Position numbers and translations under genes: made by a program | The notes under the pieces: model-generated | What the model saw: the letters and a program-made list of their open reading frames with translations, nothing else | The model's database searches: none | What the model was told of the DNA's origin: nothing | Assembly (NCBI GenBank): GCA_026982395.1 | Contig: JALSHD010000180.1 | Location: 1-41,673 of the forward strand | Origin: Chromatiales bacterium | GTDB taxonomy: Bacteria > Pseudomonadota > Gammaproteobacteria > Thiohalospirales > Thiohalospiraceae | Reading direction: 5' to 3' | Length of the DNA stretch: 41,673 bases | Shown here: positions 27,868 through 31,317 of the stretch, piece by piece | How positions within the stretch are numbered: position 1 is the first letter of the stretch | Layout: the number at the start of each line of letters is the position of its first letter

Positions 27868-30800
27868 CTACTGTGCGCGCAAAACCTGAAACTCTACCCG
27901 TCTGTTCTGCGCCCGGCCCTCTTCAGTATTGTTGTCGGCAATCGGCTGGGTCTCGCCATAGCCCATTGGAATCAGTCTGCCGGTGGAGATCCCACGCTGA
28001 CCAAGGTAGTTGATCACACTCCTAGCCCGGCGCTCCGACAACCATAAATTGTATTTGGCAGAACCATCACTGTCCGTATGCGCCTGTACCTCTATCTTGA
28101 CTGTAGGATAGTTTTTCAGTTCTGCCGCCACCTCATCCAGAGTCTGTTTGGCGCCCTCGGTCAGTCTGGAAGAGTTATATTCAAAATTGACTCCCTGCAA
28201 TACACCTTCAAACATGGCACAACCCGCTTCATCCACCCGGGCACCTTCAGGCGTATTGGGGCATCCATCCCGGATATCATTGACACCGTCGCTATCCGAA
28301 TCCGGGATATTGAAAGCGACGTTTACCTCGGGAGCCGGAGAAGGTAGAGTCATCAGGGGTGCCACTGGCTCGGGTGTGCCGCCAAAGTATTTGAGAATGC
28401 TCACTGTAACCATCTGCGCATCTTTAGCCAGATATTCGTACTCACCACGGACCGCAACACCATTGCCAAACTCGTACTTCAGCCCTGCACCACCAAACAG
28501 CAGTAGCTCGTCATCACGTTTGTATGCAATGTTGGCGGAGTTGTCTATCTTGCTTATGCCAAACTTGAGCAGAGGGGAAAATCCACCAATATCACCAAGA
28601 AAGTCATATACCGCGCCCAGCGTATAACTGCTGTATTTTATTTGTTTATCATTCGGGATTAATTTCGCCTCACCCATGGGGCCGCCAGCCAGTTCAATGG
28701 CAATATGATCGGTTGCTTCATAGCCAATCATTACTTTGGCGCTCACATCACTGTCATCATCCACGGAGAATCCGGTTGAGCCAGTATCCGGGTCAAGGCG
28801 GCTCATTCCGGCACCTAGTCCAAGGTAATAACGCCCACCCTGGCGTGCTTTTTCCCCAACAACGGCAGAACCACTCTCTTCACTTTCCACTGTGACAGAA
28901 CTTTCCTGCTCACCCTCTGCTGCACTTGTATCGATACCATTTCCCGGAATATCAACAGCGGTTTCAGTCGGCAAGGACTCCTCTTCGGTCAGCTCCACTA
29001 TCTCAATTTCAAAAGGTTGCTCCAAGGCATCGGTATCAACCTCTTCAGCAACGATCTGGCCACTGAGTATCAGCATAAAAATGACAGGAACAGATCGATG
29101 CCGTGAAAACCGGCGAACCATTCCGGCCAGAGCCAGGAGCAGCAGACCCAACCCCATGGCTCCCCCCCCCATAGAGGTCGTCACTTCGGCATCATCGCTA
29201 TCGAGATAGTCGGGTTCATTGTCCGAGTCGCTATCGAGGTTCACTGCTTTTCCACCTTGAACTTCGGCGCGGGTCAGCTTGCCGTCATTGTCATCATCAT
29301 TATCCAGATAGTTGGGCATTCCATCGTTATCAAAATCGCCCGGCCGCTCATCACGGGTTGGAACCGAATCGTTGTCATCATCGGGATCGAGAGCGTCTAT
29401 AAGGCTATCGCCATCACTGTTTTTTGGCTTGTCAACATAACGGCCAATCTCTACCGAATCCTCAATGCCATCTTTATCTGTATCCTTGTCAAACGGATTC
29501 GTACCCAGCTTGACTTCATCCCTGGTCAACAAGCGATCGTTATCATCATCATCATCCAGGTAGTTGGGCACTCCATCACCGTCAAAATCACCTGCAGGCT
29601 CTTCTGATGTTGAGAGAGTATCGTTGTCATCATCGTTGTCCAGCGCATCGATGACACCATCTCTGTCGCTATCCACAGGCTGATCAACATTTCCGCCAAC
29701 TTCCAGCTGATCGGGTTTCCCGTCCTTGTCACTGTCAATGTCCAGTGGATCGGTTTTCAGTTTATATAGTTCATCACGAGTAGACAGTCCGTCGTTGTCA
29801 TCATCCCGATCCAGATAGTCAAAGTCGCCATCCCTGTCGGTATCCCGGGTAACCGGTCCCTCGTTTTTTGTCAGGATTCCGTCACCATCATCATCAGCAT
29901 CCCGGTAATCGGGAAGGTTGTCTCCATCAAAGTCGTCCCGGCTTTCACTCCGGGTTGGAATACTGTCTCCATCATCATCCTCGTCCCGCGCATCGATAAT
30001 ACCGTCATTGTCCGTATCCAGGGGACGAGCAACGTCAGAACCGATTTCAACCCCGTCAGGAATGCCGTCATTGTCAGTATCGGTATTCAGAGGGTCGGTA
30101 TTCAGTCGTCTCTCCACACTGGTAGGTACGCCGTCATTGTCATCATCGTTGTCGAGATAGTCCGGCGTTCCATCACCGTCTGCATCTTTGCTGGCAGGCA
30201 GCTCCACACCGGTAGGAATCCCATCTCCGTCATCATCCTCATCCCGGTAATCGGGAATCCCGTCTCCGTCCGTATCCAGGCCAGTACCCTTGCCTTCCTT
30301 GTTGTCCCGGATTCCGTCACCATCCGAGTCAGCATCTCTGGTGCTCACTTCAAAACGACCGGAAAACAGACCATCGCTTATTACCTCGTTTAGCTGGTTT
30401 CCATCATGGGGAGCTGTGTAAGAACGAACTTCGATAAAATAACGGGTGCCGCTATCCAGACCAATGATAGTGGCACTTCTGCTGTTTTTTCCTTCAACGC
30501 GGTTATCACTCCGGCCATCAACCAGAGCATCTTTAACTTCGGCTCCCTTCTCGTCAAAAACACGAATGACATACCCACCTTCCCGGAGATAACTCACCTC
30601 ATTCCAGGTCAGCCGGATAGACTGCTCATTGGGCTCTGCACTGACTCCAGTGGCATCCAGCGTCTGAGTGGCCAGAATATCGTTGTCTTTCTGCTTGCTG
30701 TTCAGACTATCAAGAACTTCCTGTCGTTTGCTATACAGTCCGTTGTACCTCACATCCAAACCGCCGGTATCCAGACTGACGGTCAAATCATTTCCCAGGG

Positions 30801-31317
30801 CATCGCCAATTTCCCCGGTCAGTTTATTGCTGTTTAAACGAAGTATTTTCAGTCCGCTCAGCTGATTTAGCGTTTCAGGCAGCGCCCCTTCCAGGCTGTT
30901 TTCTTCGAGCTTCAACTGCCTCAGCCTGGTTAAATGGCCTATCTCGTCGGGAATCGGTCCGGTCAATTCGTTGTCATGCAGATCCAGTCTTACCAGTTCC
31001 GTGAGTTCTCCGATTTCGGCAGGAATATTGCCCTTGAGTCCGTTCGACGCCAAATTCAATCCGGTTACACGGGTATCATCGGCATTGCAGGTAACGCCTT
31101 CCCAAGTGACTCCTGAATTACAAACCTCAGAGTCTGTATTCCAACCGGAGTTTTGCTTCCATTGGGGACCGCCGGTTTTCATGAAAAACTGTTTGAGCGC
31201 CTCCCTCTCGTTATCGGGAATATCCGCCAAAACCTGTCCGAACGTAACAAACTGGGCAGCTGCAACGATACCTGCCAGTTTTACCAGAAACTTACCCCAA
31301 CCCGATACCCGCTTCAT
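27868..31317 (-). CDS. LRR / FN3 / thrombospondin type-3 / OmpA multidomain envelope protein with internal sorting-signal junction
   Basis: The 1149-residue protein starts with a signal peptide (1-31, cleavage after VLA) at an ATG preceded by AGGGGGTG. Domains in order: a plant-type LRR cap (34-80) with Cys66 and Cys77; about four leucine-rich repeats (85-195, LTGxIP style); an FN3-like domain (219-327); thrombospondin type-3 Asp-rich repeats (329-708). Then comes GGGAMGLGLLLLALAGMVRR (717-736), which resembles a GlyGly-CTERM sorting tail, followed at once by a second signal-peptide-like stretch (733-757, ending IVA-EE). An acidic linker (758-825), a probable eight-stranded barrel (828-979), another type-3 repeat (1006-1033) and an OmpA peptidoglycan-binding domain (1038-1148, HTDSDGSAKYNLWLSERRA) complete it. 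It may be a fusion of two secreted proteins. A role in surface attachment or calcium-dependent structure is inference. Confidence 0.85.
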   Translation of the reverse strand: MKRVSGWGKFLVKLAGIVAAAQFVTFGQVLADIPDNEREALKQFFMKTGGPQWKQNSGWNTDSEVCNSGVTWEGVTCNADDTRVTGLNLASNGLKGNIPAEIGELTELVRLDLHDNELTGPIPDEIGHLTRLRQLKLEENSLEGALPETLNQLSGLKILRLNSNKLTGEIGDALGNDLTVSLDTGGLDVRYNGLYSKRQEVLDSLNSKQKDNDILATQTLDATGVSAEPNEQSIRLTWNEVSYLREGGYVIRVFDEKGAEVKDALVDGRSDNRVEGKNSRSATIIGLDSGTRYFIEVRSYTAPHDGNQLNEVISDGLFSGRFEVSTRDADSDGDGIRDNKEGKGTGLDTDGDGIPDYRDEDDDGDGIPTGVELPASKDADGDGTPDYLDNDDDNDGVPTSVERRLNTDPLNTDTDNDGIPDGVEIGSDVARPLDTDNDGIIDARDEDDDGDSIPTRSESRDDFDGDNLPDYRDADDDGDGILTKNEGPVTRDTDRDGDFDYLDRDDDNDGLSTRDELYKLKTDPLDIDSDKDGKPDQLEVGGNVDQPVDSDRDGVIDALDNDDDNDTLSTSEEPAGDFDGDGVPNYLDDDDDNDRLLTRDEVKLGTNPFDKDTDKDGIEDSVEIGRYVDKPKNSDGDSLIDALDPDDDNDSVPTRDERPGDFDNDGMPNYLDNDDDNDGKLTRAEVQGGKAVNLDSDSDNEPDYLDSDDAEVTTSMGGGAMGLGLLLLALAGMVRRFSRHRSVPVIFMLILSGQIVAEEVDTDALEQPFEIEIVELTEEESLPTETAVDIPGNGIDTSAAEGEQESSVTVESEESGSAVVGEKARQGGRYYLGLGAGMSRLDPDTGSTGFSVDDDSDVSAKVMIGYEATDHIAIELAGGPMGEAKLIPNDKQIKYSSYTLGAVYDFLGDIGGFSPLLKFGISKIDNSANIAYKRDDELLLFGGAGLKYEFGNGVAVRGEYEYLAKDAQMVTVSILKYFGGTPEPVAPLMTLPSPAPEVNVAFNIPDSDSDGVNDIRDGCPNTPEGARVDEAGCAMFEGVLQGVNFEYNSSRLTEGAKQTLDEVAAELKNYPTVKIEVQAHTDSDGSAKYNLWLSERRARSVINYLGQRGISTGRLIPMGYGETQPIADNNTEEGRAQNRRVEFQVLRAQ
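29194..30333 (-). repeat. Tandem repeat array encoding Asp-rich thrombospondin type-3 units
   Basis: This stretch encodes residues 329-708, made of repeated units such as DxDGIPDYxDxDDDxDG. Larger modules begin with D(T/S)D(N/K)DGxxDxxE(I/V)G at residues 413, 528 and 612, so units were duplicated in blocks. Type-3 repeats bind calcium through the Asp side chains (family knowledge). The DNA is full of short GTCATCATC-like strings and is a candidate for copy-number change. Confidence 0.85.

Follow-up and report, generated by a model that had tools for sequence, protein, structure and literature searches.

A gammaproteobacterial gene that appears to encode a surface adhesin and an outer-membrane anchor as one protein with two adjoining signals

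The GlyGly-CTERM sorting tag is known to be transferable and to be cut by rhombosortase (PMC6219818, PMC13393428), and a 2011 survey stressed its position at the extreme C terminus of proteins (PMC3237569). In VesB of Vibrio cholerae, the tag comprises a glycine motif, a helix, and basic residues at the end of a single protein, and the genome encodes both rhombosortase and a type II secretin (PMC6219818). Two-gene neighbourhoods of the JDVT-CTERM/MrtJ type have been attributed to Haft 2024, as relayed in PMC11980579. In Myxococcus xanthus, the TraA/TraB system pairs a CTERM-sorted surface protein with a barrel-TSP3-OmpA partner; the two ORFs overlap by 4 bases and the products are 1:1 (PMC3325183, PMC12045341). 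The only bacterial precedent for an internal tag that we found in the literature is MXAN_5598 of the same species, in which a MYXO-CTERM links an adhesin half to a half made of a barrel and OmpA, and for which both processing of the N-terminal part and an origin by fusion of two genes have been proposed (PMC11980579). Because this protein was already noted in 2025, the idea is not new, and the statement in the earlier note on this DNA that no such case had been described was wrong.

Here we describe a gene of this architecture in a 41,673-nucleotide stretch of DNA from a Chromatiales bacterium (contig JALSHD010000180.1), referred to below as the window. This marine bacterium appears to encode a surface adhesin and an outer-membrane anchor as one long protein: positions 27868-31317 of the minus strand form a single continuous open frame of 1149 residues, which comprises the following features.

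27868..31317, minus strand: whole precursor gene, 1149 aa, frame unbroken; orthologous frames also lack stops
31225..31317, minus strand: N-terminal signal peptide, residues 1-31 (GQVLA^DIPD), read from the sequence; hydrophobic core also in orthologues
30802..31071, minus strand: leucine-rich repeats (LRR) of plant-receptor type, residues 83-172 (Pfam LRR; PDB matches)
30400..30645, minus strand: fibronectin type III-like domain, residues 225-306 (Pfam fn3, weak)
29182..30330, minus strand: Asp-rich calcium-type (TSP3-like) stalk, residues 330-712 (sequence; Pfam TSP3_bac)
29162..29170, no strand given: nine-base C/G homopolymer coding for GGG (sequence; absent from orthologues)
29113..29172, minus strand: internal GlyGly-CTERM tail, residues 716-735 (MGGGAMGLGLLLLALAGMVR; TIGR03501)
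29095..29115, minus strand: basic, predicted cytoplasmic loop RRFSRHR, residues 735-741, common to both signals (sequence)
29047..29094, minus strand: internal signal peptide core and putative signal peptidase I site, residues 742-757 (SGQIVA^EE; homology)
28849..29046, minus strand: variable disordered linker, residues 758-823, with predicted new N terminus E758 (pLDDT, conservation)
28387..28848, minus strand: eight-stranded outer-membrane beta-barrel, residues 824-977 (PF13505, AlphaFold)
27901..28302, minus strand: short TSP3 linker (1006-1024) and OmpA peptidoglycan-binding domain (1045-1139) (PF00691)

The Pfam fn3 match scored 21.3 bits in the window protein, under the 25-bit cut-off, and exceeded the cut-off in a relative from another family (G020); likewise, the TSP3_bac match was weak in the window protein and strong in relatives. 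Residues 758-823 had pLDDT values below 50 and were poorly conserved among orthologues. The barrel matched PF13505 (7e-13) and the OmpA barrel, with AlphaFold strands at 96-245 of the model, and the terminal domain matched PF00691 (4.5e-24) and the C-terminal domain of OprF (TM 0.81). The C half has the make-up of an OmpA-family protein, a barrel and an OmpA domain behind a signal peptide that is internal here and judged by homology. The window protein scored 99.8 bits with the TraB model NF033763, against a cut-off of 700. The closest PDB sequences to the repeats at 30802-31071 are plant LRR receptor kinases, despite the gammaproteobacterial host. A slip in the homopolymer at 29162-29170, a run that is not conserved, would delete the CTERM helix together with the entire OmpA half.

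At the junction of the halves, residues 716-757 (29172-29047, minus strand) read MGGGAMGLGLLLLALAGMVRRFSRHRSVPVIFMLILSGQIVA^EE, in the layout GGGAMGLGLLLLALAGMV-RRFSRHR-SVPVIFMLILSGQIVA^EE: GGG, a hydrophobic helix, and RR are followed by a signal peptide ending in IVA^EE and then by the β-barrel/OmpA protein. Re-reading the sequence confirmed the residues and coordinates that had been reported for this region, as well as their Gly-rich, hydrophobic, and basic GlyGly-CTERM-like layout, which TIGR03501 places above its cut-off, if only at the borderline. With a curated cut-off of 15.5 bits, the window tail scored 16.0 bits as a 32-aa fragment, 16.2 in a six-frame search, and only 10.8 in the truncated protein, so the GlyGly assignment is borderline in the window alone; the orthologous tails in G001 (19.7) and G004 (15.8) both exceed the cut-off. 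The tag occupies residues 716-735 of 1149 and not the extreme C terminus. A MYXO-CTERM tag was not found here, as TIGR03901 gave 16.5 bits against a cut-off of 20 and the signature Cys is absent. All five genomes compared retain the GlyGly motif and the RR that begins the loop, and the whole layout is conserved in three genomes of the same genus and in G020. A six-frame GlyGly-CTERM search of 20 relatives at E 0.001 gave no matches, since a model with only 22 positions cannot attain such significance.

The second hydrophobic segment had been read as a signal peptide, and this is supported by homology. In a paralogous family, whose internal tail is a JDVT-CTERM (35.3 bits, cut-off 27), the segment at the equivalent position lines up with the signal peptide that begins the OmpA protein of split homologues, in which the two halves are separate genes, and the A-x-A sites coincide. 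To gauge how widespread the arrangement is, we searched the class with the C half and then read the loci, several of which hold frames that reach a contig end. This yielded 31 fused frames from 20 genomes and 10 families of our gammaproteobacterial sample, with internal tails that are GlyGly-like, JDVT-CTERM above cut-off, or of related Gly-rich types. Under a fixed rule, an A-x-A motif follows the second helix in 29 of the 31 frames, compared with 18.9 expected when the residues behind that helix are shuffled, and follows the first helix in only 11; in the two misses, G001 (AAA) and G067 (VNA), the motif lies just beyond the scanned range. The loop is net positive in 30 frames, and the exception (L209) is a mis-parse by the helix finder that fits by eye. 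As the layout is conserved in relatives and recurs in these 31 frames, it reflects more than chance.

As this set was selected by its OmpA half, a survey of 30 JDVT loci picked irrespective of OmpA is the fairer test. Among these, 28 tags were C-terminal, and each of the two internal tags was followed by a signal peptide and an OmpA barrel. The N halves of the fused proteins are diverse, including LRR/fn3, invasin and Big_1 domains, cadherin-like domains, and HYDIN/VesB-type Ig domains, while the C half is conserved, a pattern consistent with one type of outer-membrane anchor that can carry interchangeable adhesins. In another genome of the genus, one more copy of the C half is truncated by the edge of its contig (G007:C137:18278-18778).

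Comparison of fused and split homologues gives additional insight into the relationship between the halves. Fourteen homologues in our tree of OmpA halves, and a truncated fifteenth, are two genes, with the CTERM-ending gene stopping anywhere from 85 nt upstream of the start of the signal-peptide OmpA gene to 31 nt within it, start positions in these pairs being guesses. The fused or split state changes six times on this tree (5-6 times across bootstrap trees, with four or more of the changes required by branches of good support); nine "split" rows without a confirmed state, owing to truncated contigs or the lack of a CTERM neighbour, were left out, and nine changes are counted when they are included. 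These changes may have run in either direction, fusion or splitting, and the in-frame gene fusion suggested in the earlier note is plausible as an evolutionary history. The split versus fused comparison that the note raised found fused orthologues of the window gene and real two-gene pairs in related families. L215 (fused) and L235 (split) are sisters whose DNA agrees to either side of the inter-signal loop and differs there by 26 nt, which shifts the frame; the split member may use a TTG start overlapping a TGA stop. Both signals survive every switch, as would be the case if processing of the fused protein gave the two products that the split genes encode. Distant split OmpA homologues at L042 (6378 and 3622 ORFs) have lipobox-like starts (VSACSIF, LSGCSIL) and not A-x-A.

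The enzymes that such processing would need are encoded in the source genome. Its rhombosortase scored 140 bits against a cut-off of 84, and the ORF shows the GLSGALHG and DSH motifs (Ser, His). Rhombosortase was found in all eight genomes of the genus and in each of 17 further genomes tested, including every fusion-bearing genome tested; it also occurs in genomes that yielded no fused gene, and is therefore not a specific marker of the fusions. The source genome also encodes the type II secretin GspD and, by a six-frame search at a loose threshold, at least one ordinary C-terminal GlyGly-CTERM protein (L246). On contig C182 of the same genome, a JDVT-CTERM TSP3 cargo, an OmpA gene, and MrtJ lie in a row (L134; G000:C182:32263-33861). 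The source genus has JDVT-tagged TSP3 proteins near MrtJ, as do the two-gene systems relayed in PMC11980579. In contrast to those systems as relayed there, an OmpA gene lies between cargo and MrtJ here, and the paralogous family fuses cargo and OmpA; the OmpA gene may be a standing part of the JDVT/MrtJ system. MrtJ is above cut-off in most genomes that carry fused JDVT genes, and it was not found in two with such genes, G005 and G006, which are MAGs of 86% and 96% completeness.

We considered whether the single frame might be produced by a frameshift, a stop loss, or an assembly error that joined two genes in the MAG, given that the nine-base homopolymer lies exactly at the junction in the source genome. 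However, the frame is open across the junction in G001 (1310 aa), G004 (1318 aa), and the 5'-truncated G005 of the same genus, as well as in G020 of another family (987 aa), and these independent genomes use other glycine codons and have no homopolymer of such length. A fusion artefact is therefore close to impossible, and sequencing error or a homopolymer frameshift is ruled out by the open orthologous frames. Orthologues with a stop between the halves, which had been named as the sign of an error here, were not found; since the orthologues keep the frame with different codons, the nine-base G run is a local feature of the window. It had also been suggested that internal initiation at Met733 would let one mRNA yield both the 1149-residue product and a separate 417-residue OmpA protein. 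Met733 directly precedes the basic residues, and the start sites of split relatives overlap and are probably coupled, but Met733 has neither a Shine-Dalgarno site nor a Met counterpart in orthologues, and G004 has no ATG, GTG, or TTG between the hydrophobic stretch of the tail and the end of the signal peptide. As an in-frame start codon preceded by anything like a Shine-Dalgarno site occurs at the junction in only four of the 31 fused frames, we consider this mechanism very improbable.

Two other alternatives concern the fate of the precursor, and we regard both as unlikely. The precursor might stay uncut, held in the inner membrane by a helix hairpin between a periplasmic adhesin and a barrel inserted in the outer membrane, and so form an envelope-spanning tether. 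The two helices, the basic cytoplasmic loop, and the long disordered linker before the barrel make this topology possible, but a plain hairpin would have no need of the CTERM motif before the first helix and the A-x-A after the second, which are both kept, and it sits poorly with the surface-adhesin architecture of the N half and with split relatives that produce two separate proteins. Alternatively, there might be a single cut, in which signal peptidase frees the barrel half. The adhesin would then retain the CTERM helix, or lose it to GlpG, and would either remain in the inner membrane or be released. In VesB, GlpG can cleave close to the rhombosortase site when rhombosortase is missing (PMC6219818, PMC13393428), a second rhomboid-type protein (38 bits) is encoded in the source genome, and the window tail is a borderline GlyGly match. 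The conservation of the GlyGly motif and loop RR in all five orthologues, with rhombosortase found in all of these genomes, argues against this.

Of the three options in the earlier note, the evidence best supports the third, in which a rhombosortase-type protease would divide the precursor into a surface protein and its partner in the outer membrane, with the cuts themselves inferred. We think it likely that rhombosortase and signal peptidase cut the precursor into a lipid-anchored adhesin and a 1:1 OmpA partner. The first signal peptide would start Sec export of the LRR-fn3-TSP3 adhesin half, and the GlyGly-CTERM helix would act as a stop-transfer segment in the inner membrane, with RR facing the cytoplasm. 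After the loop of about 7 residues, the second signal peptide would re-enter the translocon and export the beta-barrel/OmpA half. Rhombosortase would then cut on the periplasmic side of the first helix, at a position beside the glycines predicted from VesB (PMC6219818), and join the new C terminus of the adhesin to a phospholipid-type group, and the type II system would carry the adhesin to the cell surface. Signal peptidase I is predicted to cut at A757^E758, after which BAM would insert the barrel and the OmpA domain would grip peptidoglycan. Against this reading, known rhombosortase substrates end shortly after the basic residues, and the tag of VesB is C-terminal, whereas here a second helix, that of a signal peptide, follows. 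The end product would be an adhesin-anchor pair comparable to TraA/TraB, with 1:1 output given by construction in a fused gene. TraA/TraB serves by analogy as the working model for the presumed adhesion function, even though it consists of two ORFs, with a MYXO-CTERM, PA14, and Cys-rich repeats, and the window gene is one ORF with LRR, fn3, and TSP3.

MXAN_5598 resembles the window gene by architecture, with an adhesin N half, an internal CTERM, and a barrel and OmpA C half in one ORF. It is one atypical case that belongs to MYXO-CTERM/myxosortase, in contrast to the GlyGly/rhombosortase and JDVT/MrtJ forms described here, which span many gammaproteobacterial families, allow fused and split genes to be compared, and have an identified internal signal peptide. 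These two versions, their spread, and their repeated fusion or splitting are new: in the literature searched, which did not extend to Haft 2024, we did not find descriptions of the GlyGly or JDVT form, the internal signal peptide, the gammaproteobacterial spread, or the repeated change of state. On balance, we favour the broader view that Gammaproteobacteria commonly make a surface adhesin within one polyprotein that also contains its outer-membrane partner, which binds peptidoglycan, and that carries two signals, so that cleavage by signal peptidase I and an intramembrane sorting protease yields both in a fixed 1:1 ratio. On this view, the arrangement has undergone repeated gains or losses and employs two or more sorting proteases that are unrelated to each other. 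Cellular polyproteins in which a sorting tail acts as a stop-transfer segment and a signal peptide comes next are reminiscent of the envelope polyproteins of viruses, and a literature search for bacterial polyproteins with internal signal peptides returned only a viral review. The fused genes permit a direct test of whether rhombosortase and MrtJ cut non-terminal tags.

The fused and split pairs can also be regarded as natural experiments, which suggest that each CTERM cargo has a specific OmpA partner. They predict pairings and, as with TraA/TraB, may help to identify which outer-membrane proteins partner further sorted surface proteins. Both forms occur side by side at one locus, L130 (G002:C129), where a fused JDVT-OmpA gene has MrtJ and unfused JDVT cargo and OmpA genes as its neighbours.
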